DNA of 64,000 nt, taken from positions 310,001-374,000 of the forward strand of contig JAEKNX010000004.1 in the NCBI GenBank assembly GCA_016839055.1, given 5' to 3'. Shown piece after piece: positions 7,721 through 46,884 of this stretch. The stretch's first letter is position 1. Each line of letters opens with the position of its first letter. The notes under the pieces were generated by a model. The model did no database searches. It saw only the letters and a program-made list of their open reading frames with translations, and was not told where the DNA came from. The position numbers and the translations under genes were made by a program. The DNA is from Spirochaetales bacterium. GTDB lineage: Bacteria; Spirochaetota; Spirochaetia; UBA9216.

Positions 7721-7918
7721 TCAAATTGAACGTCCCTGTTCAATTTGATTTTGGAGTTTGAAAGTTTTACTTTTCAAACTCCAACTGGGAAACTCCCTGC
7801 CGTCCCTGGCAGGCGCAGCAGATGTAGGTGTCAAATTGAACTTCCCTGTCCAATTTGATTCTGGAGTTTGAAAGTTTTTCAAACTTCGACATGGAAACTC
7901 CCTGCCGTCCCTGGCAGG
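7721..7918 (+). repeat. Two tandem copies of a three-hairpin intergenic module
   Basis: Copy 1 (7721-7813) and copy 2 (7831-7918) are near-identical and each holds three inverted repeats in order. H1 has CAAATTGAAC arms with loop GTCCCT (7722-7747) or TTCCCT (7832-7857, one mismatch in the stem). H2 is a long GGAGTTTGAAA/TTTCAAACTCC-type stem (7751-7784 and 7863-7886). H3 is CCTGCC-GTCCCT-GGCAGG (7796-7813 and 7901-7918). The second H3 ends 7 bases before the AGGTGA ribosome binding site of the mutarotase gene. Related elements occur at 8263, 16431 and 56268. No coding potential is apparent. Confidence 0.85.
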
Positions 7919-26778: not shown

Positions 26779-27552
26779 TCAATATACGACAGTGACCGAA
26801 CCGTCGCCAATTGGAACAATTTTTACGGCTATTCCGTAAACTGCGGAAAGGTTTTCTTCGGTAAACAGCTTGTCAAAGGGTCCTGATTTCACTTCCCTAT
26901 TCGGTCCTATTAGAATGAGATAATCGGCTGTCCGGGCTGCAAGTTCGGGGTCGTGAGTCGTGAATATTACTGTTTTTCCTGCTGTCCTGTAGGATTTCAT
27001 CAGGTTTATCATCTCCCGTTTTCTGGATAGATCGAGGTGATTTGTGGGTTCATCAAGCAGGAGGATCTCCGGCTCCTGGGTGAGTGAACGCGCCATCAGG
27101 CATACCTGAGTTTCTCCACCGCTGAGTCTGGGTATCTTTCTGTCGGCAATAGCCGTCCCTCCGGCTGTCGCAAGCGCTTCAAATGCTATTTTACGATCTT
27201 TTTCCCCGGGCTGCTGAAGAGGGTTCAGATAAGGTGCGCGGCCGAGAAGGATGTACTCGGCTACAGAGTACTCGAAGGATAGATTTTCTTTCTGAGGAAG
27301 CAGGCTTATTGTTCTTCCCCGCTCACGAGAACTGCGTTTCTGAAGATCTTTTCCGTTTAACAGTATTACCCCATCGTCCGGTTTCAGCCAGCCAAGCAAT
27401 AGATGCAGCAGTGTAGTCTTGCCCGTTCCGTTCGGTCCGAGAATTGCGCATATAGAACCTTCCGGCAGCGAAAGGTTGAGATCAGAAAAGAGTTTTGTTT
27501 CACCGAAAGAGAAGCTCATTCTCCTGAGTTCAAAAGCCGGTTGCCCTAGCAT
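26779..27552 (-). CDS. ABC importer ATP-binding protein, FecE/BtuD/MolC type
   Basis: ATPase of a metal-chelate, vitamin B12 or oxyanion importer. Walker A is GPNGTGKTT at 39-47, the signature LSGGETQ lies near residue 145, and Walker B is ILLLDEPTNHLD. At 257 residues it matches the family. The gene overlaps the permease by 7 bases and is last in a three-gene operon (binding protein, permease, ATPase). The neighbouring molybdoenzyme operon makes molybdate or tungstate a reasonable substrate, as for Haemophilus MolABC, but iron chelates or cobalamin cannot be excluded. Confidence 0.9.
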   Translation of the reverse strand: MLGQPAFELRRMSFSFGETKLFSDLNLSLPEGSICAILGPNGTGKTTLLHLLLGWLKPDDGVILLNGKDLQKRSSRERGRTISLLPQKENLSFEYSVAEYILLGRAPYLNPLQQPGEKDRKIAFEALATAGGTAIADRKIPRLSGGETQVCLMARSLTQEPEILLLDEPTNHLDLSRKREMINLMKSYRTAGKTVIFTTHDPELAARTADYLILIGPNREVKSGPFDKLFTEENLSAVYGIAVKIVPIGDGSVTVVY

Positions 27553-28553
27553 GTCTGCTCCGTATCAGGTCTTGTAAGGATGATTATAAAGAGAATGACG
27601 CCTAAAAATGCTGTCAGAATTCCCAGTGGAATCTCGCCTGAGAACAGCAGTCGGGCAAAATCATCGCAGATGAGTCCGAAAAGTCCGCCTATTACAATGG
27701 CGCCCGGAAGTGATGCCGAAGCATCGGCGCCAAATAGTTTTCGGGACAGATGAGGCACTATCAATCCTACCCACTGAACAATTCCACTGATGGAAATCAT
27801 TGTAGTGACGGGGATTACAGCCAGAAAGAGTATGAGCAGTCGGCCTTTTGCCGGGCTTAGTCCCAGGGAGAATGCCGTTTGGTCGCCGGTCGACAGGATG
27901 TTTATTCTCCAGCGCAGGGCGATGAGAATTGTCAGAGGAATCACTACTCCCGGAATTGCAGCCTTGAGGTGGGAGGGTGTTACTCCGGACAGGCCGCCGA
28001 GCAGCCAGAAGGTCATCTCCGGAAGTTGTGTCAGCGGATCGGCCAGCGTTTTCACGAGGCCGAGGCCCGCCGAGAATAGTGCCGATACGGCAATCCCTGC
28101 GAGTATAAGACGCAGCAACCAGCCTCCGAAGCGGAGCCTGTGGGCAAGGATGTAGGTTAGCGCAAGCCCTGTCAGCCCCGCGGCGGCAGCGCTGATCTGC
28201 ATCCATATCAGAGCCTGTCCGCCGAGTATAATGCTGAGTCCCGCACCGAAGGCGGCCCCCTGGCTTATCCCCAGAAATCCCGGCTCAACAAGAGGGTTGG
28301 AAAATATTAACTGAAATATAAGCCCTCCGCAGCCAAGCGCCATTCCCAGCAGCATGGCGGCTGTACAGCGGGGCAGTCTTAACGTCAGGAAGATTTTCAA
28401 CGCCAGAGGATCAGCTCTGAGCACTGAAATTGGAGTAAAGCCCGGCTTCGGGTAACGGCCTAGAAGCAGCGACAGCAGGAAGACTGCCGCAAGCGTAAGG
28501 CAAAGTAGTATTAGTCTGCTCTTGTTGCTTCGGTGCTTTACTGTTTTGCTCAT
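27546..28553 (-). CDS. ABC importer permease, FecCD/BtuC family
   Basis: Membrane channel subunit of 335 residues with roughly ten hydrophobic helices. FecCD signatures are LRLPRCTAAMLLGMALGCGG, NPLVEPGFLGISQGAAFGA and WVGLIVPHLSRKLFG. The start overlaps the stop of the binding-protein gene by one base. This family moves chelated iron, haem, cobalamin or, in MolB, molybdate. No substrate-specific residue can be picked out by eye. Confidence 0.92.
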   Translation of the reverse strand: MSKTVKHRSNKSRLILLCLTLAAVFLLSLLLGRYPKPGFTPISVLRADPLALKIFLTLRLPRCTAAMLLGMALGCGGLIFQLIFSNPLVEPGFLGISQGAAFGAGLSIILGGQALIWMQISAAAAGLTGLALTYILAHRLRFGGWLLRLILAGIAVSALFSAGLGLVKTLADPLTQLPEMTFWLLGGLSGVTPSHLKAAIPGVVIPLTILIALRWRINILSTGDQTAFSLGLSPAKGRLLILFLAVIPVTTMISISGIVQWVGLIVPHLSRKLFGADASASLPGAIVIGGLFGLICDDFARLLFSGEIPLGILTAFLGVILFIIILTRPDTEQTC

Positions 28554-29581
28554 CAGCGGTAGTCGCCTGTGATTTTGGGAAGAATTATCTCATCAACATC
28601 AGCCTTCGAGAAGCCGTATGCGGTGCTGTAAAATTGATAAAGTTTGCTCTCAAGCAGTGCTTCTGAAAACAGCTGAGGATGGAGTTTGCTTCCTATCCAG
28701 TACATGCCGAGTATCCATCGCGGATCAGGTTGATCCCAGCTTAGGAAATCTCCCGGGAAGGCATAGAGCCTGTCGTTCTGTTCTGCTCGCAGCATCTTCC
28801 ATAGCGGATCTTTTTTAAGCTGTTCTTTGACATCCGCAACATCGGTATGATAGGAGACTACAAAAATTGTATCCGGATCCCATGCGGCAATCTGCTCAAA
28901 TGATACGGTCTGCCAGCTTCTTTCGCTTACGGCATCCGTCCAGACCGGGACGCCCCCCGCCCATTCAACCATCCTTGTCTGAATCCAGCCGGCTGGCGGA
29001 ACCTTGAGGGTTAGACTGCCGCCTTTCATACTGTGATAGAGAAAGAGTACTCCGGGTTTTTCCGAAGCCGCTATTCCTGATGTTGTATTTTCAACAGCAA
29101 GCCGCTCGGTCTTGAAATAAGATTTAAGTTCCTCAGCCCGTTCGGGGTTATTGAAGATCTCTCCCATCAGCGTCAAATCTCTATCGTACTGCTCCGGTGA
29201 TTCCATGTCGATGTAGTAGACCGGGATGCCCAATGTCTCAATGTTTTTTGCGGCCTTTCTCATATACCCTTTTAGTATAACATGAGACGGGTTGTAGGCA
29301 GCAACAGTTTCGGGCTGCAGCTCCATTGCCAGAACAGCCTTGCCTGAATAGGCCGGATCAAGTATTTCCTGAAAACTACCGCCTGCCTGATTTCCTTTTC
29401 CCATTGCTATGAGAGCGTCTGCAGCCTCCGGGAACATATAGAGAGCGTCGAGGACTAGTGAATATCCGGGTCCCCAGCAGAGAATCTTCGGAGTAGTTCT
29501 GTCTTCAGCTGCCACAGTGGTCAATGAAATACAGACTGTCAAAAGCAGAGCTGAAACTGATTTTTTCATGTTGAATTGCAT
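28553..29581 (-). CDS. ABC importer substrate-binding protein, BtuF/FepB/MolA fold
   Basis: Exported binding protein of 342 residues with a signal peptide of about 24 residues (SVSALLLTVCISLTTVAAED). The body has the Peripla_BP_2 pattern (ETVAAYNPSHVILKGYMRK, then VSFEQIAAWDPDTIFVVSYH). The block SWDQPDPRWILGMYWIGSKL recalls the MolA-like branch from memory. It is transcribed away from the molybdoenzyme operon, which begins with a predicted cofactor riboswitch. Molybdate or tungstate is therefore the favoured but unproven ligand. It is first in its operon. Confidence 0.85.
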   Translation of the reverse strand: MQFNMKKSVSALLLTVCISLTTVAAEDRTTPKILCWGPGYSLVLDALYMFPEAADALIAMGKGNQAGGSFQEILDPAYSGKAVLAMELQPETVAAYNPSHVILKGYMRKAAKNIETLGIPVYYIDMESPEQYDRDLTLMGEIFNNPERAEELKSYFKTERLAVENTTSGIAASEKPGVLFLYHSMKGGSLTLKVPPAGWIQTRMVEWAGGVPVWTDAVSERSWQTVSFEQIAAWDPDTIFVVSYHTDVADVKEQLKKDPLWKMLRAEQNDRLYAFPGDFLSWDQPDPRWILGMYWIGSKLHPQLFSEALLESKLYQFYSTAYGFSKADVDEIILPKITGDYR

Positions 29582-29763: not shown

Positions 29764-29778
29764 TTTAGAAAATTATAT

Positions 29779-29880
29779 TTCTCCGAGTTTGTGAATCCTG
29801 TGGCAAAGGCTATGGACGCAAACCGATGGGTTTATCTGGAAACGGATACGCCTCCCGGACTTGGAAAGGAGAGTGAGAGT
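29779..29880 (+). promoter_or_regulatory. Molybdenum cofactor (Moco/Tuco) riboswitch
   Basis: The 3' part, ACGCCTCCCGGACTTGGAAA then GGAG (29848-29871), closely matches the Escherichia coli moaA leader, which from memory reads CGCCTCCCG-N5-GGAAAGGTG. The P1 stem pairs TTCTCC (29779-29784) with GGAGAG (29868-29873). ATCC (29794-29797) can pair with GGAC (29857-29860) only in part for P2, so the inner fold is less certain. A TATC/GGATA hairpin lies at 29833-29848. It precedes a molybdopterin enzyme gene by about 170 bases. In that leader a TATCTGA-N9-TCAGATA hairpin at 29955-29977 followed by GTTTTGG could belong to the expression platform. Moco versus tungsten form is not resolved. Confidence 0.75.
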
Positions 29881-30049
29881 GGATAGGTTAAGAATACCCG
29901 TCACCTGACTGAATAAGAATCAATACACAACAGAATACAGTTTCTCTATACCTTTATCTGAATAAAATCGTCAGATAGTTTTGGATAGCTGTATATACTC
30001 ATTTCCAGTAAATTGTCCGGGGAGAAGACAAACACAAACGGAGGTTGAC

Positions 30050-32845
30050 ATGTGTGATTCAACAGTCGCAGCAGGCTGTGGTGAAAGTGACGAGAAGGTA
30101 AAGAAAAACAGGCATCTTTACAAAAAGGTATTGAATGTGAACGGTCTTGATCAAACAGTGATCGTTGATGTGGACGACAGACTGGTTGATGTAATCAGAA
30201 AGCAGCTTGGGTTGACCGGAACTAAGGTGGGATGCCGGGCCGGGCAATGCGGAATCTGTTCCGTACTGATCGACGGCAAGGTCAAACGTGCTTGTGTCGT
30301 AAAGATGAAGTCGGTCCGTGAAAACGCCGAGATCATAACGATCGAGGGTATTGGCAACCCTGAAAACCTTCACCCCGTACAGGCGGCTTGGATTAAACAC
30401 GGTGGTGCTCAATGTGGAATCTGCTCTCCGGGTTTCATAGTTTCGGCAAAAGCTCTTCTGGATCAGAATCAGAGTCCGAGCAGGGAAGATGTACGGGACT
30501 GGTTTCAGAAAAACCGTAATGCCTGTCGCTGTACAGGGTATAAACCTCTGGTAGATGCCGTTATGGATGCAGCGAAGGTTGTTCGCGGAGAAATGAAGAT
30601 TGAAGAACTATTGTGGGAATTCAAGGACGGTGAGAGTATCCTCGGTTCATTTGCTCCCCGGCCTTCAGCCCTCGCGAAGGTTACAGGCCGATGGGATTAT
30701 GGTGCCGACCTTGGTCTTAAGATGCCCGGAGAGATGCTCCACCTCGCCCTTGTTCAGTCGAAGGTCTCGCATGCGAATATCCTGTCTATTGATTACAGCA
30801 AGGCTGAAAAAATGCCGGGTGTCGAATGTGTTCTAACGGCGAAAGATGTGCAGGGTACGAACCGAATAAACGGAATGGCTACCCTTCCGGGAAATAAATG
30901 CGACGGTTTCGACCGGCCTATCATCTGTGATGAGAAAATCTTTATGTACGGTGATGTAATGGCTATTGTATGTGCCGACACCTCCGAACATGCTAAGGCT
31001 GCAGCGGCCGCGGTGAAGGTTGAACTTGAAGAGCTGCCCGCCTACCTGAGTGCATTTGAGGCGATGGAAGAAGACGCAATGGAGATTCACCCCGGCGTGC
31101 CTAATGTTTATTATGAGCTTCCGACAATTAAGGGTGGAGAGGTGAAACCGCTGATTGAGAAATCTGCGTACTCTGCCGAAGGCAGCTATTATACTACTCG
31201 TCAGCCCCATCTGATTTTAGAGCCTGATGTCGGATTCTCATACTATGATGAGGATGACAGACTGACTATCCATTCAAAGAGTATCTGCCTTTACCTGCAT
31301 ATCGACATGCTTCATAGAGCCCTCGGCCTCGATGCCGACAAGGTCAGGATTGTCCAGAATAACATGGGTGCCACCTTCGGTTATAAACTGAGCCCGACAT
31401 GTGAAGGTTATCTAGGTGTTGCAACCATGGCAACGGGGAAAGCCTGTTACCTTGAGTTTGATATGCATCAGACAATTACATATACGGGAAAGAGAGCTCC
31501 GTCAAATATCGATATTACAATGTCTGCCGACGAGGAGGGCAGGATCACAGCCCTTGATTATCAGCATATCTTCGATCACGGTGCCTATTCCGAGTGGGGT
31601 GACCTCGTTTTATTCAAGGGGAATATGTTTATCGGCGGCGGTTACAATATCGATAATATCCGCGGGTACGGAAAACTTGTCTGTACGAACCATGCATACG
31701 GTACGGCATTCAGGGCCTACGGATCTCCGCAGGCCCTCTTCGCGAGCGAATCTGTTGTCGATGAGCTTGCCCTAAAGATGGGTATGGATCCGCTCGAATT
31801 CCGTTATAAGAATGTCTACCGGGAAGGTTCGACAACACCGACCGGACAGAGTCCGGAGGTCTACCCCCTGCCCGAGATGATTGACTGGCTCAGGCCAAAA
31901 TATCAGGCGGCTTTGAAAAAGGCTGAGGCTGAATCAACTGAAGCGCAGAAGAAGGGGGTCGGTGTAGCGCTTGCAACTTACTGCGTCGGTGGTGACTTTG
32001 CCGATTATTCCGAGGCCTGGGTCGAACTTCTGCCCAACGGAGGCGCGGCGGTCTACAACTGCTGGCAGGATCACGGCCAGGGTTCGGATATGGGTACTCT
32101 TACAATCATCCATGAATGTCTGCGTCCTCTGAACATTCCTGTAGACAAAATTAAGCTGATTATGAACGACACTGCAATGAGCCCCGACGGTGGAATATCA
32201 GCGGGAAGCCGGGGACAGGTTTTTTTCGGAAATGCGATGAAGGACGCCTGCGATAAAATGCTTGTCGCAATGGTGAAACCCGATGGAAGCTACCGCAGCT
32301 ATGACGAGATGAAGTATGAGGGAAAGGAGTTTCTTTACAAGGGCAATTACGCCTCTGGTCCTCATTGTTCTATGATCGATGAGAAAACGTCGCAGTGTAA
32401 ACCGATGCTAATGTATATGTACGGAATGATCATGAGCGAGGTAACCGTAGATACCGCGACGGGTAAAACATCGGTCACCAAGATGACTATGGCTATTGAT
32501 GTCGGTAAGGTTATAAACCGCAATAATGTAGACGGGCAGATGTACGGAGGGCTTGCACAGGGAGTAGGTCTGGCCTTAAGCGAAAACTTCGATGATCTCT
32601 CTAAGCATGTTGATCTTGTCCGCTGCGGGCTTCCGTTTATAAAGGATATTCCCGATGAGATGGAGCTTGAGTATTTTGAGTCTCCCCGCGAACAGGGTCC
32701 ATTCGGAGCCTCCGGAGTAGGCGAGCTGCCGCTGTCGTCTCCCCATGCCTCGGTTGTCAATGCGATAGCCAATGCCTGCGGAGTCAGAATCAGAGAGCTG
32801 CCTGCAACACCCGACAAGGTGTTATCTGGTTTGAAGAAACTATAG
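30050..32845 (+). CDS. mop: MOP-type molybdopterin aldehyde oxidoreductase
   Basis: Xanthine-oxidase-family enzyme oxidising aldehydes to acids. Two [2Fe-2S] domains come first: Cys62, Cys67, Cys70 and Cys82, then Cys122, Cys125, Cys159 and Cys161 (CRCTGYKPLVDAVMDAA). The molybdenum domains follow without an FAD domain. The protein ends with FGASGVGELPLSSPHA, whose Glu is the catalytic base. The sequence is close throughout to Desulfovibrio gigas Mop (907 residues; 931 here). ATG 30050 with ACGGAGG upstream is chosen over an in-frame ATG at 29981 lacking such a site. First gene of an eight-gene operon under a predicted Moco riboswitch. Confidence 0.93.
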   Translation: MCDSTVAAGCGESDEKVKKNRHLYKKVLNVNGLDQTVIVDVDDRLVDVIRKQLGLTGTKVGCRAGQCGICSVLIDGKVKRACVVKMKSVRENAEIITIEGIGNPENLHPVQAAWIKHGGAQCGICSPGFIVSAKALLDQNQSPSREDVRDWFQKNRNACRCTGYKPLVDAVMDAAKVVRGEMKIEELLWEFKDGESILGSFAPRPSALAKVTGRWDYGADLGLKMPGEMLHLALVQSKVSHANILSIDYSKAEKMPGVECVLTAKDVQGTNRINGMATLPGNKCDGFDRPIICDEKIFMYGDVMAIVCADTSEHAKAAAAAVKVELEELPAYLSAFEAMEEDAMEIHPGVPNVYYELPTIKGGEVKPLIEKSAYSAEGSYYTTRQPHLILEPDVGFSYYDEDDRLTIHSKSICLYLHIDMLHRALGLDADKVRIVQNNMGATFGYKLSPTCEGYLGVATMATGKACYLEFDMHQTITYTGKRAPSNIDITMSADEEGRITALDYQHIFDHGAYSEWGDLVLFKGNMFIGGGYNIDNIRGYGKLVCTNHAYGTAFRAYGSPQALFASESVVDELALKMGMDPLEFRYKNVYREGSTTPTGQSPEVYPLPEMIDWLRPKYQAALKKAEAESTEAQKKGVGVALATYCVGGDFADYSEAWVELLPNGGAAVYNCWQDHGQGSDMGTLTIIHECLRPLNIPVDKIKLIMNDTAMSPDGGISAGSRGQVFFGNAMKDACDKMLVAMVKPDGSYRSYDEMKYEGKEFLYKGNYASGPHCSMIDEKTSQCKPMLMYMYGMIMSEVTVDTATGKTSVTKMTMAIDVGKVINRNNVDGQMYGGLAQGVGLALSENFDDLSKHVDLVRCGLPFIKDIPDEMELEYFESPREQGPFGASGVGELPLSSPHASVVNAIANACGVRIRELPATPDKVLSGLKKL

Positions 32846-32857
32846 ATTTATCGGTTT

Positions 32858-32893
32858 CCGCCGCGGACTGATGCGGCGGGAGCCTGCTTTTTT
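32858..32893 (+). terminator. Intercistronic hairpin after the aldehyde oxidoreductase gene
   Basis: CCGCCGC (32858-32864) pairs with GCGGCGG (32873-32879) around an 8-base loop; a run of six T ends at 32893, eight bases past the stem. It may only partly terminate transcription or protect the mop message, allowing more enzyme than accessory protein. Confidence 0.45.
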
Positions 32894-32905
32894 GAAGGAT
32901 TGAAG

Positions 32906-35185
32906 ATGGATAAAGAGTATATCGGAGCCCTTGAGGATAAGTGTATTCAGGACTGCCCTCCTGGATGTCAGAGCCTATGTCCCCTGCATGTAGACGTCAG
33001 GAAGATGCTTGAAGCCATTCAGAAGGCCGATTTTAACCTTGCTCGCAGCATCTATGAAAGATCGGTGGCCTTTCCGGGGATACTCAGTAGGATCTGTGAT
33101 GCCTCCTGTAGATCCGGCTGTCTGAGAGGAGATTACGGCGGCGCTATAGATGTTCCCCGACTTGAAGAGGCGGCAGTTCTATTTGGAATGAAAAAGGCTC
33201 GGAAGTTCCGTATCCTCAGAAAGAGAAGTGAGCGTGTGGCTGTCGTAGGCGGCGGACTCTGCGGGATGACCGCGGCGCTTACTCTTTATGAGAAGGGTTA
33301 TGACGTTGAACTCTTTGAGAAGTCTTCATCACTCGGAGGCTGCGTCCGAAGTATCGTTCTGGATATTCTGACGCCGGATATTATAGCTGAGGACGTCTCC
33401 GTCTTCGATTCTACCGCTGTCAGCATTAGGTTGAACTCCGGCCGTAATGCTTCTGAGCTTGAAAATTTAATAGAGTCATATGACGCCGTTCTCGTTGCCT
33501 GGGGAAGCGGGCAGGCGACTAGGGAGCTGGTAGCTGATATTGATACCTTCATTTGCAGGCATTCGGGCCTCTTTGCCGCCGGCAGTCTTCTCCGGAAGAA
33601 TTATTCGCCATCGACGTCGATGTCGGACGGTCGCAGAGCTGCTGTTTCCATTGATCGCTACCTCCAGGGGGTTTCGCTTTCGGCAGGTCGCGATGGAGAA
33701 TTACCCTTTGAAAGTTGTCTTTATACAAATACAGAAACTATCGTCCCGTCAAGTGTTACGGTGCCTGCCGAGGGCGGGTCTTTTCGCCGTGATGAGGCAT
33801 TAACCGAGGCTTGCCGCTGTGTGCTTTGCGAATGCATGGAGTGTGTCTCCGCCTGCAAGTTGTTAGAGCATCACGGGAGCTATCCAAAGCGCTATGTGAG
33901 AGAGCTGTCGAACAGCGTCAATCAGTTCTACGGGGTGAGGAAAACAAAGCATATGCTTAACGGCTGCACTGATTGCGGTCTTTGCGCCGAGCTCTGCCCG
34001 AATGATCTGTCAATGGGAGAACTCTGCACGATGGGAAAGCGCGAACTTGTAGAACGGGGAATAATGCCGCCGGCAGTCCATGATTTTCCAATTCAGGATA
34101 TGATATACAGTAACAGTGAGCAATGCTCCATCCGAATCTTCCCTGAAGGAGCTGACTCTGTCTATTTCCCCGGATGTCAGATGCAGGCCCTGATGCCTGA
34201 TTTGCTGGAAAAATCCTATGAAAGCATTCTTCAAATGAGTTCAGGCAGAACAGGTCTTTATCTCGGCTGCTGCGGAGCCCCTGCAGACTGGGCCGGCCGT
34301 ATACCTCTTCGGGACGAGATAATAGAATCATTCAGAACCTGGTGGAGCGGCTGCGGCAAACCCAGAATAATCTATGCCTGTACCTCCTGTAGGAAGATTC
34401 TTGCAAATGCAGTCGATAAGGAATCACTCATTTCCTTATGGGAAATCTTCGATGAAAAATCTTCAGAAAATATTCTTCCGGCGACCGTGGGAGAGCAACC
34501 TAGGCTCGCAATCGCCGATCCATGCACCTCTCGTTATCTTCCTGAAGTCAGATCGGCTGCTAGATCCCTTTTTAAAAGACAGGGCTGTGAAATTGAAGAA
34601 TTATTCTATAGTGGAGAGCTTACCCGCTGCTGCGGATTCGGAGGCCTTGTCAGCCTGACGGAACCGGAGGTCGGCCGTCTAATGGTAGAGGCGAGAATCA
34701 ATGAAAGCAATGAAGATTACGGGCTTTATTGCGTGATGTGTCAGGATAACTTCGCATCCGAAGGGAAAAGCACCAGACATATTCTTGAAGTCCTCTATGG
34801 TGCTTCCGCCCATAGGAAGCCGCCGGGCAGCAGGATATCTTATAGTGAAAGACAGGAAAACCGGCGAAGAGCCCGTGAGTCGGTTCGAAGAAGATGGGCT
34901 TCAAACCACGCCCTACCTGCAGACGATGCCTGGGAGAATACAAGGCTGCTGATATCGGAAGAGGTTGCTGCCCGGGTGGAAGAGCGGATGATTCTTTATA
35001 GGGATATTCAGCGTGCTGTCTTCGAAGCGGAGCTGAGCGGCCGCCGGATTCTGAATCCGGAAACCGAACATTTAATAGCCTCGAATAAACCAGGAGTAGT
35101 TACCTATTGGGTTGAGTATTCGCTGGAAGGGGAGGCTGTCAGGATTCATAATGCCTACAGTCACCGGCTCGAGGTTATGGAGTAA
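32906..35185 (+). CDS. FAD/NAD(P) oxidoreductase with iron-sulfur and CCG domains, MOP electron-transfer partner candidate
   Basis: A 759-residue fusion. The N-terminal GltD-like iron-sulfur domain has CIQDCPPGCQSLC and CDASCRSGCLRG. A Rossmann FAD domain follows (VAVVGGGLCGMTAAL, ELFEKSSSLGGCV). Next come cysteine clusters CRCVLCECMECVSAC and CTDCGLCAELCPN, then a heterodisulfide-reductase-like CCG region (YFPGCQMQ, LGCCGAP, CCGFGG). The last 100 residues have no recognised domain. I recall this architecture as the pyridine nucleotide-disulfide oxidoreductase/dicluster-binding protein next to aldehyde oxidoreductases in Desulfovibrio. It probably accepts electrons from Mop; the direction and partner are inferred. 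ATG 32906 with GAAGGA is preferred over TTG 32900. Confidence 0.85.
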   Translation: MDKEYIGALEDKCIQDCPPGCQSLCPLHVDVRKMLEAIQKADFNLARSIYERSVAFPGILSRICDASCRSGCLRGDYGGAIDVPRLEEAAVLFGMKKARKFRILRKRSERVAVVGGGLCGMTAALTLYEKGYDVELFEKSSSLGGCVRSIVLDILTPDIIAEDVSVFDSTAVSIRLNSGRNASELENLIESYDAVLVAWGSGQATRELVADIDTFICRHSGLFAAGSLLRKNYSPSTSMSDGRRAAVSIDRYLQGVSLSAGRDGELPFESCLYTNTETIVPSSVTVPAEGGSFRRDEALTEACRCVLCECMECVSACKLLEHHGSYPKRYVRELSNSVNQFYGVRKTKHMLNGCTDCGLCAELCPNDLSMGELCTMGKRELVERGIMPPAVHDFPIQDMIYSNSEQCSIRIFPEGADSVYFPGCQMQALMPDLLEKSYESILQMSSGRTGLYLGCCGAPADWAGRIPLRDEIIESFRTWWSGCGKPRIIYACTSCRKILANAVDKESLISLWEIFDEKSSENILPATVGEQPRLAIADPCTSRYLPEVRSAARSLFKRQGCEIEELFYSGELTRCCGFGGLVSLTEPEVGRLMVEARINESNEDYGLYCVMCQDNFASEGKSTRHILEVLYGASAHRKPPGSRISYSERQENRRRARESVRRRWASNHALPADDAWENTRLLISEEVAARVEERMILYRDIQRAVFEAELSGRRILNPETEHLIASNKPGVVTYWVEYSLEGEAVRIHNAYSHRLEVME

Positions 35186-35189
35186 TTAT

Positions 35190-35396
35190 ATGAAAACTGA
35201 AGTATCAAATATAGACGGACTTCTCTGCGAGGGCTGTAATCTCCTACTCGAAGCCGGAAAGGTTCATATAAGGTATATGAAAAGTAAATTTCCTGCGGAA
35301 CTTCTGGTCTGTCCGGGCTGCGGCCTCATCTACGTACCAGAAGAACTTGCTATAGGGAAGATGGCCGAGGTCGAGCGGACCCTGGAGGATAAATGA
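35190..35396 (+). CDS. Small zinc-ribbon/redox protein (DVU_1557-like)
   Basis: A 68-residue protein with two cysteine pairs, LLCEGCNLLLE and LVCPGCGLIYVPEELA, that can bind one zinc or iron ion. The start at 35190 lies just after the preceding stop; a longer in-frame version would run inside the upstream gene. The stop overlaps the methyltransferase start (ATGA). The position between the dicluster protein and the methyltransferase matches the Desulfovibrio gene order as remembered. The function is unknown; metal delivery or electron transfer is a guess. Confidence 0.75.
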   Translation: MKTEVSNIDGLLCEGCNLLLEAGKVHIRYMKSKFPAELLVCPGCGLIYVPEELAIGKMAEVERTLEDK

Positions 35397-36115
35397 TCAG
35401 GACGGAAAAAACGCCTCTTTACGAAGCCCCTCTATGGCGGGATTTCAACGAAGGGCTCAGACGTCCCGGCGGGCTTGAACTTACCGACTATGCGCTTTCT
35501 CTATGCGGGATTTCTGCCGGGGCTAGGGTTCTCGATGTCGGATGCGGCGGCGGCTTCTCGGTGGAGTATTTGTCCAGCCGCTTCGGTTTTATAACAGAAG
35601 GCTGCGATATCTCAGATCAGATGATAGAAGAAGCACGGCTGCGGTTTCCGGCAAAAATCTTTTTCAAAGCCGATACGGCTGCCATTCCCTGCTCCGGTGG
35701 CTGCTACGATGCCGTACTGGCAGAATGCAGCCTTAGTATCTGTAACGATCTTTCCGCGGCTCTCTCTGAAATCAACAGGGTTCTTGTCGCCGAGGGGAGG
35801 CTTATAATCACCGATATGTATTTAAGAGGCAGAGGTGGGGCGGGGACGGCGGATAATGGAAAAAGCTGTCTGCAGAAATTATCTCCCGAATGGAAATGGC
35901 GGAAAGCGCTTCAGGCCGAAGGTTTTGAAATTCTCTGCATAAAGGAGCGCAGCTCTGATCTTGGGTCGTTGATTGCAAGGATAATATTTGAGTTTGGTTC
36001 AGTCGAAAATTTCTACTCCGAGTGGCTGGGCGGCCCTGATGACTGCGGAGTAAAAGACAGTACTGCAAAACCTGGCTACTTTCTTGCAGTCTGCCGAAAA
36101 AAAGGAGATCTCTGA
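35393..36115 (+). CDS. Class I SAM-dependent methyltransferase (DVU_1556/TrsM-like)
   Basis: Cytoplasmic methyltransferase of 240 residues. The SAM-binding motif I is RVLDVGCGGGFSVEYL near residue 45, followed by motif II EGCDISDQMIEEAR and a post-motif with AVLAECSLSI. The C-terminal third is less typical. The acceptor is unknown. Its place beside a radical SAM gene and a C_GCAxxG_C_C gene suggests a shared small-molecule or protein modification needed by the aldehyde oxidoreductase. Both ends overlap or abut neighbours. Confidence 0.83.
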   Translation: MIRTEKTPLYEAPLWRDFNEGLRRPGGLELTDYALSLCGISAGARVLDVGCGGGFSVEYLSSRFGFITEGCDISDQMIEEARLRFPAKIFFKADTAAIPCSGGCYDAVLAECSLSICNDLSAALSEINRVLVAEGRLIITDMYLRGRGGAGTADNGKSCLQKLSPEWKWRKALQAEGFEILCIKERSSDLGSLIARIIFEFGSVENFYSEWLGGPDDCGVKDSTAKPGYFLAVCRKKGDL

Positions 36116-36507
36116 TGAATGAAACAAACTGGGAACTGCTTGAGCTTGCTGGCAAGGGATACTGCTGCAGCCAGATTCTTGCAGCACAGGCCCTTTCAAT
36201 TAAGGGCGTAGAGAATCCTCTGCTTATAAGGACTATGAAAGCTTTCTGCGGTGGACTGCAGAGTGGGCTTCTTTGCGGGGCTCTCAGCGGAGGGGCCTGC
36301 TTTCTGGAGCTGCTGCATGAAGGTTCGGCATTTGTAATGATTCCGGAGCTTATCAGCTGGTTTACTGATAATTTCGGCAGCAGCGACTGTGGGGTTCTCA
36401 CCGGAGGAGATGCTGACTGGAAGGCTGAGCACTGTCCTTTAATCATCGCCGGGGTTTATGAAAAATGTCTTGAACTTCTGGAGAACCATGATTATGAAAT
36501 CGAGTAG
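36115..36507 (+). CDS. C_GCAxxG_C_C family redox protein (DVU_1555-like)
   Basis: A 130-residue protein of the putative redox-active C_GCAxxG_C_C family. The conserved cysteines are seen in GYCCSQILAAQ, AFCGGLQSG, LLCGALSGGACFLEL, near DCGVLTGGD and in HCPLIIAG. It shares one base with the methyltransferase stop and overlaps the radical SAM start by about 20 bases. Proteins of this family are often encoded near molybdenum and iron-sulfur enzymes. The biochemical role is not established. Confidence 0.83.
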   Translation: MNETNWELLELAGKGYCCSQILAAQALSIKGVENPLLIRTMKAFCGGLQSGLLCGALSGGACFLELLHEGSAFVMIPELISWFTDNFGSSDCGVLTGGDADWKAEHCPLIIAGVYEKCLELLENHDYEIE

Positions 36508-37867
36508 GAGTCTCTGCCCTGTATGTTTGAAACTTCTGAATCTTGAATATATCAGACGGGATGATGATGTTTTTCTTTCCAAAGAATGTGATGAGCACGG
36601 CAGTTTTGAAATTCCGATATGGAGGGGGCTCCCCGATATCGATGACTGGATGATGGGGACGGAACTCACTCGGCCGTCAAAAGTACTGACAACCTCTGTC
36701 GATGGTTGTCCGTTTGACTGCGGAGTTTGTCCTGAACATAAACAACAGGCCTGCTGTGTTGTTATTGAGATAACAAGTCGGTGCAATCAGTCCTGCCCTG
36801 TCTGCTACGCCTCCTCATCAAAGGACACTTGCGGCCCGGATGATCGGCCAGTGGATGAAATAATTTCTGATTTGAAATTTCTAAAAGAGATAGGTGAAAC
36901 ACGTCCGTTTAACCTGCAGTTTTCGGGAGGCGAACCCTCACTTCGCGACGATTTGCCGGAGATTCTCCGGGCAGCTTCAGCGCTCGGTTTCCCGTATCTT
37001 CAGCTCAATACAAACGGCCGGAGGCTCGCAGAAGAACCTGGCTATGCCTCCACGTTGAAAGATTCCGGATTGTCAGCGGTCTTTCTCCAGTTTGACGGCT
37101 TGTCGGATGACGTTTATATACGACTCCGAGGAGAGGCGCTTGCAGAAAAAAAACGACAGGCAGTGACAAACTGTGCTGCAGCAGGACTTGGTGTTGTACT
37201 GGTCATGACTCTGGTGCAGGGGGTGAATGATCATCAGCTTGGAGGCCTTGTTAAATATCTCACAGAAAATCTCCCTGCCGTCAGAGGGCTGCATCTCCAG
37301 CCGGTAAGCTGCTTCGGCCGGTATCCGGAAGGTAGGGGAAAACCTCGGCGGATTACTATGCCCGAAGTTTTTGCGGCTCTTGAACTTCAGTTGGGAGACT
37401 CGGTAAAAGCTGATTATTTTAAACCTTTAAGCTCCGGGCACCCTCTTTGTTCATTTCACGGACGTTTCTATCTCGGACCGGAGAAAGAGATCGTTCCGCT
37501 GATAAATGATAAGGCTGAAAGCCCGGGCTCTTTCTGCTGCTGTTCAGGCGGTGTTTCTGCCATAATGAAGGCGCGAGATTTTCTTTCGGAAAAATGGACA
37601 ATGCCCTCGGCATCTTCTTCGCAGCCGGTCGGAGCTGCCTATAATGTTTCGGCCTGGGATGAGTATCTTCAGCTGGTAAAACAGAACGGCTTCAGCATCA
37701 CCGGAATGCTTTTTCAGGATGCCGATACCCTTGATTTGGACAGACTATCTTCCTGTAGGGTTCATGTTCTCGCCCCCAATCGCAGACTCATTCCATTTTG
37801 TGCGTATAACCTCAGCAGCAGGAACGGAATGACACTGTATCGCAGACAACTCAAGGTGCAGCATTGA
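36488..37867 (+). CDS. Radical SAM protein (TrsS-like, cysteine form)
   Basis: A 459-residue enzyme. The N-terminus has SLCPVCLKLLN and a DGCPFDCGVC element. The radical SAM [4Fe-4S] motif CNQSCPVC (Cys99, 103, 106) lies in VIEITSRCNQSCPVCYASS, followed by FSGGEPSLRDDLPEI. I recall this family as the radical SAM (seleno)protein TrsS; here all such positions are Cys codons. Starts at 36488 or 36494 are both possible from CTGGAG at 36478-36483. The reaction is unknown. With the methyltransferase and ligase it may build or modify a cofactor. Confidence 0.85.
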   Translation: MIMKSSRSLCPVCLKLLNLEYIRRDDDVFLSKECDEHGSFEIPIWRGLPDIDDWMMGTELTRPSKVLTTSVDGCPFDCGVCPEHKQQACCVVIEITSRCNQSCPVCYASSSKDTCGPDDRPVDEIISDLKFLKEIGETRPFNLQFSGGEPSLRDDLPEILRAASALGFPYLQLNTNGRRLAEEPGYASTLKDSGLSAVFLQFDGLSDDVYIRLRGEALAEKKRQAVTNCAAAGLGVVLVMTLVQGVNDHQLGGLVKYLTENLPAVRGLHLQPVSCFGRYPEGRGKPRRITMPEVFAALELQLGDSVKADYFKPLSSGHPLCSFHGRFYLGPEKEIVPLINDKAESPGSFCCCSGGVSAIMKARDFLSEKWTMPSASSSQPVGAAYNVSAWDEYLQLVKQNGFSITGMLFQDADTLDLDRLSSCRVHVLAPNRRLIPFCAYNLSSRNGMTLYRRQLKVQH

Positions 37868-39120
37868 TCAGTCCGCTGGATAAATGGATGGAGGGCAGGC
37901 TGGGGCATAGTCCAACCTCTGAAAATCTACTTAGGTATCAGTTTGCCAAAATCAGGGAAACGGCTGCGTATATAAAGAATTACAGCCCTTATTATAGAAG
38001 AATTCTATATAATTTACACCCGGAGGATCTCAGATCCGCCTCTGATCTTGCCGAATGGCCGCTGACTACGCAAGAGGACTTGAAATTATACGGAGCGGGG
38101 ATGGTCTGTGTTTCACAGGATGAAATATGCCGAGTTGTAAGCTTGACCAGTTCCGGCACAACCGGCGGAAGAAAGAGGGTCTGGTTTACCGATGAAGATC
38201 AGGAACGCACCCGTGATTTTTTTCATCACGGCATGATGAGTTTTACCTCAAAGGGCGACATTGTTCTTATCGGGATGCCCGGACCTCAGCCGGGGAGCAT
38301 CGGCCCCTTGCTCTACGATGCCTTGTCACGATTCAGCGCCCGGGGAATTGTCGCGGGACCGCTCGGTTCTCTCTCAGAGGCCGGGGGTATAGTCATAAAT
38401 AAGGGAGTAACTCATTTTGCCGGGCTTCCCCGGCAGGCGGCCGGTCTTTCGGCTTTTCTTGAATCCTGCGGCAGGTCTCACAATCTCAAGACCTGGCTTT
38501 TGACTGCTGATTATGTACCCTCCGGTATTAGAGAACGCCTTGAGGCAGTCCCCGGCACCGCCGTATATGAACACTGGGGAATGACCGAAACGGGGCTCGG
38601 CGGAGGGGTATTCTGCGGCGCAAAGTCGGGTTACCATATGCGTGAGGCTGATCTTTATATAGAGATAATTGATCCTGATACCGGGGTGATGCTTTCTCCG
38701 GGGCAATGGGGTGAGATTGTCATTACGACGCTGAGCCGCCTCGGAATGCCACTTTTTCGGTACAGAACCGGCGACTGCGGTCGCTGGCTGTCAGCTTCCT
38801 GTTCCTGTGGTTCTATGCTCCGGCTGATGGATAGAACCCCCGGCAGACTTGACGACTTTATGGAGCAGCCGGATGGCAGCAGGCTGGCGCGCAGCGACTG
38901 GGAAGATGCTGTATTCAGCCTTGACGGTGTAATTGATTATCGCATTAAGTCCGGAGGTTCTGTTGCCGAGCTTATCATCCTCAATGCTCCGGCGCCGCAG
39001 GGGGTTGAGATTGAAAAGCTTGAAACCATCCTTCAGGGACGGATAGAATACAGAAATGTAAGAGATTGGTCTTTTGAAGGGCCGCAAAAAGGTATATGGG
39101 GCAGAGCGAGATTTGACTGA
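37864..39120 (+). CDS. PaaK-like AMP-dependent ligase (DVU_1553-like)
   Basis: Adenylate-forming enzyme of 418 residues. The ATP-binding loop is VSLTSSGTTGGRKRVWF and the downstream motif VYEHWGMTETGLGGG; FRYRTGDCGRW corresponds to the usual YRTGD. It resembles phenylacetate-CoA ligases (about 430 residues). Activation of a carboxylate for CoA or amine transfer is expected. The substrate could be the acid formed by Mop, or a precursor of a cofactor modification; context alone does not decide. It overlaps the radical SAM stop by 4 bases. Confidence 0.85.
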   Translation: MISPLDKWMEGRLGHSPTSENLLRYQFAKIRETAAYIKNYSPYYRRILYNLHPEDLRSASDLAEWPLTTQEDLKLYGAGMVCVSQDEICRVVSLTSSGTTGGRKRVWFTDEDQERTRDFFHHGMMSFTSKGDIVLIGMPGPQPGSIGPLLYDALSRFSARGIVAGPLGSLSEAGGIVINKGVTHFAGLPRQAAGLSAFLESCGRSHNLKTWLLTADYVPSGIRERLEAVPGTAVYEHWGMTETGLGGGVFCGAKSGYHMREADLYIEIIDPDTGVMLSPGQWGEIVITTLSRLGMPLFRYRTGDCGRWLSASCSCGSMLRLMDRTPGRLDDFMEQPDGSRLARSDWEDAVFSLDGVIDYRIKSGGSVAELIILNAPAPQGVEIEKLETILQGRIEYRNVRDWSFEGPQKGIWGRARFD

Positions 39121-40261
39121 AAATAAAATAAAAACAACATATGGAGCTATAATATTGGCCGCAGGCTTTTCATCACGAATGGGCCGGCTGAAGCCGCTTA
39201 TGCAGCTCGGAGGCTGTACTGTGCTTGAGCATCAGATTCGGTTGTTTCAGTCTGTTGGAATTGATTCACCTGTTGTTGTTGTCGGCCATCATGCTGATGA
39301 GGTGATTCCCACTGCCGAAAGGCTGGGTGCACGAGCTGTGCTGAACAGCCGTTATGAAGCGGGCATGTTCTCATCAGTCATAGCCGGAGTCGGGGCACTA
39401 AGAGATTCCAGTATAGACGCATTTTTCATGCTTCCGGTTGATGTTCCGCTAGTCTTGGGAATCTTTCTTAAGCGGATGTGCAGAATCTTTGAAGAAGAGT
39501 CTGCACGTATCATTTATCCGGAATACAGGGGAGAATCAGGACATCCGCCGCTGATCAGCTCCTCTCTCATTCCAGAGATCCTCAAGCATGACGGAGCCGG
39601 GGGGCTTCGGACGGTGCTTGCGAACTATGAATCAGGCACTTTTGGGTTTGAGACTGGCGAAGAGGGTATTCTTTTTGATATGGATACCCCTGATGCTTAT
39701 GAGAAAATAAAACATAGATGGGATGAGAGGCAGCTTCCGAAGGAGAGCGAATGCCTACATCTGCTGAATGACTATGCAACTCCGTTAGACGTGATTAGTC
39801 ATTCTGAGAAGGTCTCGGAGCTATCCGGTATTATATGCCGAAAGTTGAACAATCGGGGATTTAATCTATCTATTCAGCTTGCCGAGCGGGCAGGGCTGCT
39901 GCATGATGTGGCCAAGAGTTTGCCCAATCACGCCCGTGAAGGCGCGCGGATACTGACCCTTCATGGTTATAATGATATTGCGTTGATAACCGGGCAGCAT
40001 ATGAACCTATACTATAGCTCCGGCAGCCCGATAACCGAGGCGGAGATCCTCTATTTAGCCGACAAGCTCCTTGATGGTGTTGAAGTATGTCCTCTCGTTC
40101 ATCGCCGGACTGAGTCACTCCGCCAGAAAGGCGATACTCCGGAGATTCGGAACGCAATAAACAAGCGTTTTGATTCTGCTGAATGTATCGCTGCAGCTGT
40201 TGAAGAACTTCTCGGGGAACCTTTGATGAAATTTATTCAATTCGATAGAGGCTCAAAATAA
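39113..40261 (+). CDS. MobA/MocA-like nucleotidyltransferase fused to an HD domain (DVU_1551-like)
   Basis: Probable cytidylyl- or guanylyltransferase for molybdopterin, 382 residues. The N-terminal half has the NTP-transferase motif ILAAGFSSRMGRLKPLMQLG, then DAFFMLPVDVPLV. The C-terminal half is an HD phosphohydrolase-like domain with ERAGLLHDVAKSLPNHA. There is no in-frame ATG ahead of the domain. TTG 39113, overlapping the previous stop by 8 bases, is chosen; TTG 39074 is an alternative. Xanthine-oxidase-family enzymes use the cytosine dinucleotide cofactor, so MocA-like activity fits the operon. Last gene of the series. Confidence 0.85.
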   Translation: MTENKIKTTYGAIILAAGFSSRMGRLKPLMQLGGCTVLEHQIRLFQSVGIDSPVVVVGHHADEVIPTAERLGARAVLNSRYEAGMFSSVIAGVGALRDSSIDAFFMLPVDVPLVLGIFLKRMCRIFEEESARIIYPEYRGESGHPPLISSSLIPEILKHDGAGGLRTVLANYESGTFGFETGEEGILFDMDTPDAYEKIKHRWDERQLPKESECLHLLNDYATPLDVISHSEKVSELSGIICRKLNNRGFNLSIQLAERAGLLHDVAKSLPNHAREGARILTLHGYNDIALITGQHMNLYYSSGSPITEAEILYLADKLLDGVEVCPLVHRRTESLRQKGDTPEIRNAINKRFDSAECIAAAVEELLGEPLMKFIQFDRGSK

Positions 40262-45538: not shown

Positions 45539-46141
45539 TTACTCCGTTATTTGTTTCAGGTTTGTCCCTGAAATCTGATATTTTCCGTCTTCAAACATCT
45601 GTATTCTACAGAAGTTTCCTCTGTCTATATGAAATGCCCAATGATTTTCGATGCCGCCTCCGGAGAGGATCGAAAGGAGGGTTCTAATGGGGCCTCCATG
45701 GCTGATAATAAGTATTGCCGGTTCATGACATAGTACAACTTGTTTGTTCCAGAAATTTTCAACTCTCTCATACAGCTGTCGAAGGGTCTCTCCCTCCGGT
45801 GGTGAGTGTTCAGCAGGGGCGCTAAGCCAATCAGTGAGAAGTTCCGGGGATTCATCATTTATCTCATCATAGGTTCTGCCTTCCCAAAGGCCGAAGTTGA
45901 TTTCCTTGAGTTCTTCGGCATGTATCGGCTTTAGTCCGAACGCTTCAGCTATCGGGGCAGCTGTATCAACGCAGCGCCTCATCGGGCTGGTGAATATGAG
46001 ATTAACCCCATTACGGTTGAACTGCCCCGCCTTCAGAGCCGCTCTTGTTCTTCCTTTTGCGGTGAGGTCTACATCGCTTCCGGCTCCTGTGTAGCCGCGG
46101 CTGTCGCATTCTTCATGCCGGAGCAGGAAAATTGTTTTCAT
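45539..46141 (-). CDS. cobC: Alpha-ribazole phosphatase-like histidine phosphatase
   Basis: Histidine phosphatase superfamily protein of 200 residues. The active-site motif appears as LLRHEECDS where most members have RHG, so a Glu replaces the Gly. The other conserved blocks, TSPMRRCVDTA, EINFGLWEGRTYDEI and IISHGGPIRTLL, are intact. It removes phosphate from alpha-ribazole phosphate or from adenosylcobalamin phosphate. It overlaps cobS by 4 bases and precedes cobT. Confidence 0.88.
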   Translation of the reverse strand: MKTIFLLRHEECDSRGYTGAGSDVDLTAKGRTRAALKAGQFNRNGVNLIFTSPMRRCVDTAAPIAEAFGLKPIHAEELKEINFGLWEGRTYDEINDESPELLTDWLSAPAEHSPPEGETLRQLYERVENFWNKQVVLCHEPAILIISHGGPIRTLLSILSGGGIENHWAFHIDRGNFCRIQMFEDGKYQISGTNLKQITE

Positions 46142-46884
46142 GAGATGAAAACCTGAATAAAGAGAGGCAGCAGCAGCATTATAAGTACTTCACCAGTTTC
46201 TATCAGGCTGCCGTATACGTCCCCGGTGAGCCCTTCGAGTATTCTGCTGATAACCAGGGTCGCAATGCTCAGGAGGAGCAGGGCTGCAAGACAGGCAAAA
46301 ATTCCCGGCAGTCCTCCAATTAGAAAGGCGGCTGCAAGGGTGAAGAATCCGGCGAGAAGGGGTTCTCGCACTCTGCTGTACTCCTTGAAAAATGAACCCA
46401 TACCGTCCTTTCTCGCCGACGGGAAAATGAGGATGAAATTCATTGTAATCCAGCGAGCCCCCATTGGTATGAGCAAAAGGCTAAAGGAAGCACCGTCTTT
46501 AATAAACTGAAGAATAAGGGTCCATTTGAGAAGGAGCTGAATAATTAGCGCAATGGCCCCAAAGGCTCCGGTTCGGCTGTCTTTCATGATAGAGAGCTTT
46601 TCGGTTCTTGTTTTACCGCCGCCCAAGCCGTCGGCTAGATCCGCAAGGCCGTCGAGGTGAAGACCTCCGGTGATGACAACCCATATTAAAAGGATTAGGG
46701 CGGAACTTACCTCTGGAATGAAGAATTTTACGGACAGGAGGCTCGCTCCATACAAAAGCCCGCCGATAATAAGGCCTACTGCAGGGAAGAAGATTGTGGC
46801 CCTCGCGACACTCGCCATATCCTCATCCTGTCTGTACGGAATGGGGATGATCGTTAAAAACCTTATTGCGTATAATAGTTTCAT
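46138..46884 (-). CDS. cobS: Adenosylcobinamide-GDP ribazoletransferase (cobalamin synthase)
   Basis: Membrane enzyme of 248 residues that joins adenosylcobinamide-GDP to alpha-ribazole. Family motifs are FLTIIPIPYRQDED, GGLHLDGLADLADGLGGG, with its Asp-rich metal site, and KDSRTGAFGAIAL. Several hydrophobic helices are present, as is normal. It sits between cobU, 4 bases away, and cobC, which it overlaps. Confidence 0.95.
   Translation of the reverse strand: MKLLYAIRFLTIIPIPYRQDEDMASVARATIFFPAVGLIIGGLLYGASLLSVKFFIPEVSSALILLIWVVITGGLHLDGLADLADGLGGGKTRTEKLSIMKDSRTGAFGAIALIIQLLLKWTLILQFIKDGASFSLLLIPMGARWITMNFILIFPSARKDGMGSFFKEYSRVREPLLAGFFTLAAAFLIGGLPGIFACLAALLLLSIATLVISRILEGLTGDVYGSLIETGEVLIMLLLPLFIQVFIS

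Follow-up and report, generated by a model that had tools for sequence, protein, structure and literature searches.

A conserved gene module around MOP-type aldehyde oxidoreductases with a putative role in dedicated maturation and electron transfer

Overview

The subject of this work is an eight-gene operon in a 64,000-nucleotide stretch of DNA from a Spirochaetales bacterium (GenBank assembly GCA_016839055.1, contig JAEKNX010000004.1, positions 310,001 to 374,000), which is referred to here as the window. The operon starts with the gene for a MOP-type molybdopterin aldehyde oxidoreductase (Mop) and continues with genes for a flavin and iron-sulfur protein (Dic), a small zinc-ribbon protein (Zrb), a methyltransferase (MT), a C_GCAxxG_C_C protein (CGA), a radical S-adenosylmethionine (SAM) protein (TrsS), a PaaK-like ligase (AMP) and a MocA-like nucleotidyltransferase fused to an HD domain (NTP). 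Two further proteins, XdhC and a CobC-like histidine phosphatase (HisP), are usual members in other genomes. The module is real, widespread, specific and uncharacterised. On balance it is probably a dedicated maturation and electron-transfer module for the Mop family of the xanthine oxidase (XO) type, with the exact reaction of the TrsS line being putative. This reading, which the first-pass annotation made from the sequence alone had already suggested, is favoured by the conserved gene order, the mutual dependence of the genes, their fusions and their domain make-up.

Gene order, co-occurrence and specificity

Genome contigs were scanned with a TrsS alignment, which yielded 80 loci, and profiles were built from the window proteins. 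The order Mop-Dic-Zrb-MT-CGA-TrsS-AMP is shared by tens of loci, and XdhC, NTP and HisP frequently come next (XdhC is present in 57/99 loci). This order is found in Chloroflexota, Thermodesulfobacteriota, Bacillota, Pseudomonadota, Acidobacteriota and Spirochaetota. The same gene order in tens of loci from so many phyla is more than chance. The divergence of the module proteins is correlated, with r values, for example, of 0.83 for TrsS and Dic and 0.80 for TrsS and CGA.

Among 296 genomes of the window phylum, TrsS scores over its cut-off in four and Mop does so in the identical four (Fisher 3e-9). The family that includes locus L083, titled Desulfovibrio, contributed 288 genomes, of which 164 have both proteins, 8 have TrsS without Mop, 27 have Mop without TrsS and 89 have neither one, such that Mop is found in 164/172 of the genomes with TrsS at the thresholds used. 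When 11 of the 27 Mop-only genomes were fetched, ten contained a divergent TrsS within the operon and the contig of the eleventh ended before the place of TrsS; Mop without TrsS is largely a threshold effect among these 11 and was dropped as a separate class. In a set of 19 genomes, most of them with a detached or contig-truncated TrsS locus, Mop is over its cut-off in 17.

Thirteen sister Mop-like genes that fall below the family cut-off have no TrsS, AMP, MT, CGA or Zrb in their available flanks, a few of which are short (e.g. L165 and L170), and several of these sisters share a genome with the module. Because these five genes are missing from the sister flanks, the accessory set belongs to the Mop family and not to single-chain XO-type enzymes generally. 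Some of the sisters do have XdhC and/or a MocA-like match nearby. Residues specific to the Mop family were found at 33 positions in relation to the 13 sister sequences, but were set aside as not decisive. The link between Mop and its accessory genes, which had been staked on the behaviour of close Mop homologues, therefore held when co-occurrence and order were tabulated across genomes, being specific and nearly obligate.

A catabolic route could also bring these genes together, with Mop oxidising an aldehyde, the PaaK-like ligase making the acyl-CoA and MT and TrsS acting upon the substrate. PaaK-type ligases usually activate aryl acids and Mop turns aldehydes into acids, both of which would suit such a route. 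However, the gene set is constant across the lifestyles of sulfate reducers, acetogens, Anaerolineae and Rhodocyclales, Mop takes a broad range of aldehydes in vitro and, as described below, AMP is fused to HD, HisP and MocA rather than to Mop. Such a route is thus quite improbable.

Mop, Dic and Zrb

The nearest solved chains to the window Mop are 1sij/1vlb, from Desulfovibrio gigas, and 1dgj, from D. desulfuricans. Other XO enzymes have an FAD subunit that Mop lacks, which makes Dic a good candidate for the missing flavin. In the Dic fragment that was searched, positions 20-117 match the N-terminal FAD half of NfnA and positions 121-168 its C-terminal FAD half. As these halves are adjacent in Dic but lie about 160 residues apart in NfnA, Dic lacks an NAD(P)H-binding domain, and short spacings between the FAD halves are also seen in the 34 Dic homologues in which both motifs were recognised. 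Dic also has two CCG motifs, C424-C455C456-C492xxC495 and C540-C575C576-C609xxC612, with spacings of 31/36 and 35/33, which conform to the HdrB-type pattern CX(29-40)CC...CXXC; two or more such motifs are present in 60/76 homologues.

Zrb has four cysteines that are kept at 98–100% and a C-terminal lysine that is found in 100% of 85 sequences, where the tail reads LE(D/E/G)K in all but two cases, which have ME(D)K.

In-frame fusions

Fusions were called with true stop codons respected. MocA-HD-TrsS is a single open reading frame in four loci (L061, L064, L077 and L080), one of which comes from the isolate Pleomorphomonas koreensis, and AMP-MocA-HD-HisP is a single frame in L041. Shorter combinations are AMP-HD in the spirochaete locus L017, AMP-HisP in L019, NTP-HisP in L049, L055 and L060, and HD-HisP in L046 and L094, whilst Dic is fused to Zrb in L141, L142, L143 and L150. 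On account of these fusions TrsS, AMP, MocA, HD and HisP are placed in one pathway and Zrb is tied to Dic.

The nucleotidyltransferase half of NTP scores 137.7 bits with the MocA family TIGR03310, below the cut-off of 186, and carries an LAAG motif rather than LAGG (LAAGFSSRMGRLKP), in which the Ala and Gly are 98–100% conserved in the family. LAAG is the CTP-type motif. HisP is CobC-like, with 149 bits against a cut-off of 162.9 for the CobC alpha-ribazole phosphatase. The usual partner XdhC belongs to a family that is named ‘aldehyde oxidoreductase maturation factor’ by NCBI (NF045664).

TrsS and its relationship to Tes

The AlphaFold2 model of TrsS has a pLDDT of 89.5 and its best match in the Protein Data Bank (PDB) is the tetraether synthase Tes (7tom), with a TM-score of 0.80 and 29% identity. 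The CX3CX2C motif of the radical SAM enzymes is present, with C98, C102 and C105 invariant. Residues C9, C12, C33, H36, C73, C77, C80 and H83 occupy the ligand positions of the rubredoxin-like and N-terminal clusters of Tes, and Met439 of Tes, the labile methionine of the C-terminal cluster, aligns with the conserved M406. These ligands and the labile-Met position are kept in all or nearly all of 69–94 TrsS sequences. TrsS scores 309.8 bits with the NCBIfam Tes family, below the cut-off of 450. The stretch between the two aligned blocks, ahead of the C-terminal cluster domain (residues ~334–423 of the Tes chain), gives no alignment with TrsS, and because of this mismatch the substrate of TrsS probably differs from that of Tes.

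It might be asked whether TrsS is a Tes-like enzyme for the coupling of membrane lipids that merely happens to be placed in the operon. Its closest solved relative and its retained cluster ligands and labile Met are what would be expected of such an enzyme, yet the sub-threshold family score, the unaligned stretch and the strict dependence of TrsS on Mop make this highly improbable.

TrsS has been listed among selenoproteins in a review that gives no function for it (PMC13188914). No in-frame UGA codon for selenocysteine was found in the eight core families or HisP among the module genes of the available loci.

State of the Mop cofactor

The genome of D. gigas (L140) encodes a Mop with 100% identity over 742 residues to the PDB sequence and the Mop of the D. 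desulfuricans genome (L144) is identical to 1DGJ over the stretch compared; both genomes contain the operon. The D. gigas enzyme has been described with plain pyranopterin cytosine dinucleotide (PCD), with an equatorial oxo ligand, as refined without geometrical restraints from a 1.28 Å model, and a comparison of structures revealed no further change that would explain activity (PMC3877041).

The first-pass annotation had raised an uncharacterised cofactor modification as one of two options. In such a scheme the accessory enzymes would covalently modify the pterin or a residue of Mop, and the active enzyme would retain the change. Fusion of TrsS to MocA, seen in four loci, does join the radical enzyme to the one that makes the molybdopterin cytosine dinucleotide (MCD), and NCBIfam groups Mop, XdhC and TrsS as one neighbourhood. 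Nevertheless, since the operon is present in both D. gigas and D. desulfuricans and plain PCD is the published cofactor of the former, a stable modification is unlikely, and this part of the annotation found no support. Pterin methylation by TrsS, by homology to HMPTM/MJ0619, was also dropped, as MJ0619, a relative of TrsS, is no longer annotated as a pterin methylase and has been re-identified as a tetraether lipid synthase (PMC9433317).

Proposed mechanism

As judged from the protein families, the MocA half of NTP would convert the cofactor to its cytosine dinucleotide form, and XdhC, which is encoded elsewhere in the window genome, would act in its finishing. Electrons from aldehyde oxidation would pass from the [2Fe-2S] clusters of Mop to the flavin of Dic and then on to its 4Fe-4S and HdrB-like CCG centres, with Zrb working as part of the Dic unit. 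TrsS, MT, AMP, the HD domain, HisP and probably CGA would form a single processing line for a small molecule that serves Mop alone. Given the plain MCD in solved Mop, this line most likely either has a transient role while the cofactor is loaded or activated, or produces a separate molecule as a partner.

A more specific proposal, which can be put forward only tentatively, is that TrsS, MT, AMP, HD, HisP and the MocA domain use Tes-type C–C coupling to make either a nucleotide-linked molecule not described before or a transient cofactor form, for the use of Mop alone. If so, such a molecule would explain the unusual behaviour of the MOP-type enzymes in comparison to their XO relatives, for example in working with an oxo ligand.

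It is possible, though doubtful, that TrsS, MT, AMP, NTP-HD and HisP build a distinct diffusible nucleotide-linked cofactor or redox carrier as a partner for Mop. Its assembly would resemble the pathway for the iron-guanylylpyridinol (FeGP) cofactor, in which radical SAM and methyltransferase enzymes work together with a nucleotidyltransferase and an adenylating enzyme. The combination of activities and fusions is consistent with this, as is the relationship of HisP to the CobC alpha-ribazole phosphatase; the Tes cluster ligands in TrsS suggest C–C bond chemistry on a carbon skeleton, and with plain MCD in solved Mop any product must lie elsewhere. On the other hand, MCD synthesis alone accounts for NTP, a MocA-like match also lies beside sister genes that lack TrsS, no precursor gene was recognised, and purified D. 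gigas aldehyde oxidoreductase works with flavodoxin in vitro.

Several points weigh against the dedicated maturation and electron-transfer module itself. The D. gigas enzyme has been described as active when its ligand is an oxo and sulfido is absent, so that the need for XdhC or TrsS is not obvious (PMC3877041), and the XdhC gene in the D. gigas cluster is in tension with a sulfido-free enzyme. Flavodoxin, and not Dic, was the acceptor in the D. gigas reconstitutions (PMC10223205). The co-occurrence counts are raw, with shared ancestry not factored in, and fusions of TrsS to DUF5714 occur at a distance from Mop in some cases, such that the link is not absolute in place. Finally, no biochemical or genetic test of the module was found in the papers searched: DVU1551, DVU1553, DVU1554 and DVU1557 went unmentioned and no functional paper was found, whilst DVU_1559 has been detected in a D. 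vulgaris proteomics paper.

Probable regulation by a tungsten-type aptamer

Upstream of Mop lies an aptamer of the molybdenum/tungsten cofactor (Moco/Tuco) riboswitch class. In its RF01055 alignment the P3 region is deleted, which places it in the P3-less (Tuco) class and not in the P3-containing Moco class. P3-less aptamers were linked to the tungsten cofactor by Regulski et al. (PMC2408646). As the operon lies behind a tungsten-type aptamer, its expression is probably tied to the tungsten cofactor.

The genome to which the window belongs (5 Mb) has seven Moco/Tuco aptamers above the gathering threshold, two with P3 and five, including that of the window, without. Two of the P3-less aptamers stand in front of a gene for a TupA-like protein that would bind tungstate (229 bits, where the cut-off is 400) and of a pair made of a ferredoxin and a tungsten aldehyde oxidoreductase, and on these grounds the Mop operon looks as if it sits in a tungsten regulon. 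About nine full AFOR N-domains, representing tungsten aldehyde oxidoreductase genes, are encoded in the genome. Of the P3-containing aptamers, one is upstream of a Peripla_BP_2 binding protein and the other precedes a short frame without a Pfam match, then a TonB-receptor-like frame as read from the sequence. Among 14 other loci that were scanned, three have the aptamer, in each case P3-less. In L017 and L018 it stands immediately in front of Mop, whilst in L036 it lies ~1.2 kb upstream of the Mop frame. With regard to an expression platform, the fold of 29860-30065 was no better than that of shuffled sequences (z -0.47).

Divergent from Mop, and with a common upstream region, is an ABC transporter with FecCD, Peripla_BP_2 and ATPase components at 26779-29581 on the minus strand. 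A second Peripla_BP_2 gene, elsewhere in the genome, has a P3-containing aptamer in front of it, which makes molybdate or a similar ion a candidate for the substrate of this transporter.

Spread of the module

In the TrsS tree the window protein pairs with that of L017 (support 81) within a clade that includes Bacillota (96), and three other proteins from the window phylum are placed elsewhere. The suggestion that the module is transferable gained support, since a single clade for all five spirochaete-phylum TrsS proteins was rejected (p-AU 0.00018). The module has therefore probably spread in part by transfer, although several of the genomes are metagenome-assembled and mis-binning could contribute. 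Foreign base composition was dropped as a clue to origin, the difference in GC content between the operon (0.50) and the window (0.48) being uninformative. A TD-2 RNA (RF03162, 57.9 bits) at 7715-7813 of the window, on the minus strand, fits the guess of a spirochaete host. The TD-2 motif is named for Treponema denticola.

Layout of the locus and its variants

The features of the locus are collected in Table 1. Eight same-strand, mostly overlapping genes at 30050-40261 had been described and equated with the DVU_1551-1559 families. All eight frames are open on the plus strand at these positions, and when the proteins were searched against NCBIfam the top match of each was a family named for DVU_1551-1559 or its neighbourhood. 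Seven of the eight are over the curated cut-off; CGA is just under but passes its Pfam model. The earlier description had missed the aptamer, the hairpin between Mop and Dic and the lack of XdhC and HisP in the operon.

Table 1. Features of the Mop operon and its leader in the window
Feature	Position	Strand	Description	Family match (bits; cut-off)
Moco/Tuco riboswitch aptamer	29769..29887	+	stem P3 absent	RF01055 (75.1; gathering 36)
Mop	30050..32845	+	MOP-type molybdopterin aldehyde oxidoreductase, 931 aa; two [2Fe-2S] domains, without FAD domain; Pfam domains	NF045668 (1488, full length; 1100)
Terminator-like hairpin	32853..32884	+	13 pairs and T-run, between Mop and Dic; predicted	
Dic	32906..35185	+	flavin / 4Fe-4S dicluster / double CCG protein, 759 aa	NF045663 (829; 530)
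Zrb	35190..35396	+	68 aa, two CxxC knuckles, C-terminal LEDK	NF045645 (89; 60); DUF7479
MT	35393..36115	+	class I SAM methyltransferase, DVU_1556 family	NF045667 (202; 155)
CGA	36115..36507	+	C_GCAxxG_C_C putative redox protein, DVU_1555 family	NF045669 (97.6; 103); PF09719 (69)
TrsS	36494..37867	+	Tes-like radical SAM protein; alternative start ATG at 36458 possible	NF045646 (533; 490)
AMP	37864..39120	+	PaaK-like adenylate-forming ligase, DVU_1553 family; PaaK structures match	NF045666 (384; 300)
NTP	39074..40261	+	MocA-like nucleotidyltransferase (LAAG) fused to HD domain, DVU_1551 family	NF045665 (401; 315); PF12804 + PF01966

The last five gene junctions overlap or share bases and Dic and Zrb are separated by 4 nt. 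Mop and Dic are 60 nt apart and this gap contains the 13-bp terminator-like hairpin, which, lying 3' of Mop, could yield more Mop than accessory protein.

XdhC and HisP are absent from the window operon. A histidine phosphatase gene at 45542-46189 on the minus strand, 5 kb downstream and on the opposite strand to the operon, scores 150 bits with the module HisP profile and is possibly a displaced HisP. The sole XdhC match of the genome (L159, 8410-9844) adjoins a MocA-like gene away from Mop.

Variants occur in other genomes. In D. gigas a nitroreductase-family gene is found between Mop and Dic (L140, 5882-6568), and two Chloroflexota loci (L047 and L057) have second, divergent copies of Mop, Dic and Zrb beside the main module. 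TrsS fused to DUF5714 occurs at Mop-less sites in L042, L054 and L069, with Mop elsewhere in those genomes. Homology of CGA to the DUF5714 domain fused to TrsS was considered and rejected (hhalign probability 6.8%).

Significance

For the xanthine oxidase family, the first structural model came from the D. gigas aldehyde oxidoreductase, an enzyme that has presented two puzzles: it is active without a sulfido ligand and it has no flavin. The present comparison indicates that Mop is almost always accompanied by seven to ten partner genes, and a classic molybdenum enzyme thus appears to depend upon unstudied machinery. This machinery includes a radical SAM line as well as Dic, a flavoprotein that has no NAD(P)H domain and could provide the flavin that Mop lacks, and TrsS represents a Tes-like radical enzyme in a non-lipid context. 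The window also provides a natural case of a Mop operon wired to a tungsten-type riboswitch.

Comparison with known systems

All the families of the module are already in NCBIfam, where the accessory families carry no assigned function. The window operon shares eight families with the DVU_1551-1559 operon (NF045645, NF045646 and NF045663-NF045669), in the order of the Desulfovibrio loci, but differs from them in being without XdhC and HisP and in being led by a P3-less aptamer. Mop belongs to the same family as the D. gigas aldehyde oxidoreductase (1vlb/1sij), with an end-to-end alignment of 1181 bits. That enzyme has been studied as a stand-alone protein with flavodoxin as its partner, whereas its own genome has the accessory operon; no operon or gene cluster for it is mentioned in a review (PMC10223205).

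With XO-family maturation by MocA and XdhC the module has in common the MocA-like NTP with its LAAG motif and, where present, XdhC. Unlike this generic system, which is at most what is found by the sister genes, the Mop module adds Dic, Zrb, MT, CGA, TrsS and AMP. Dic shares Fer4_20 and the start of the FAD fold with the GltD/NfnL flavoproteins but lacks their NAD(P)H-binding domain, and its two CCG motifs are also those of the HdrB proteins, the CCG part being fused on in Dic. TrsS, in turn, has the radical SAM core and the checked cluster ligands of Tes (GDGT-MAS, 7tom), and differs from it in its family score, its central stretch and, in some genomes, its fusion to MocA-HD.

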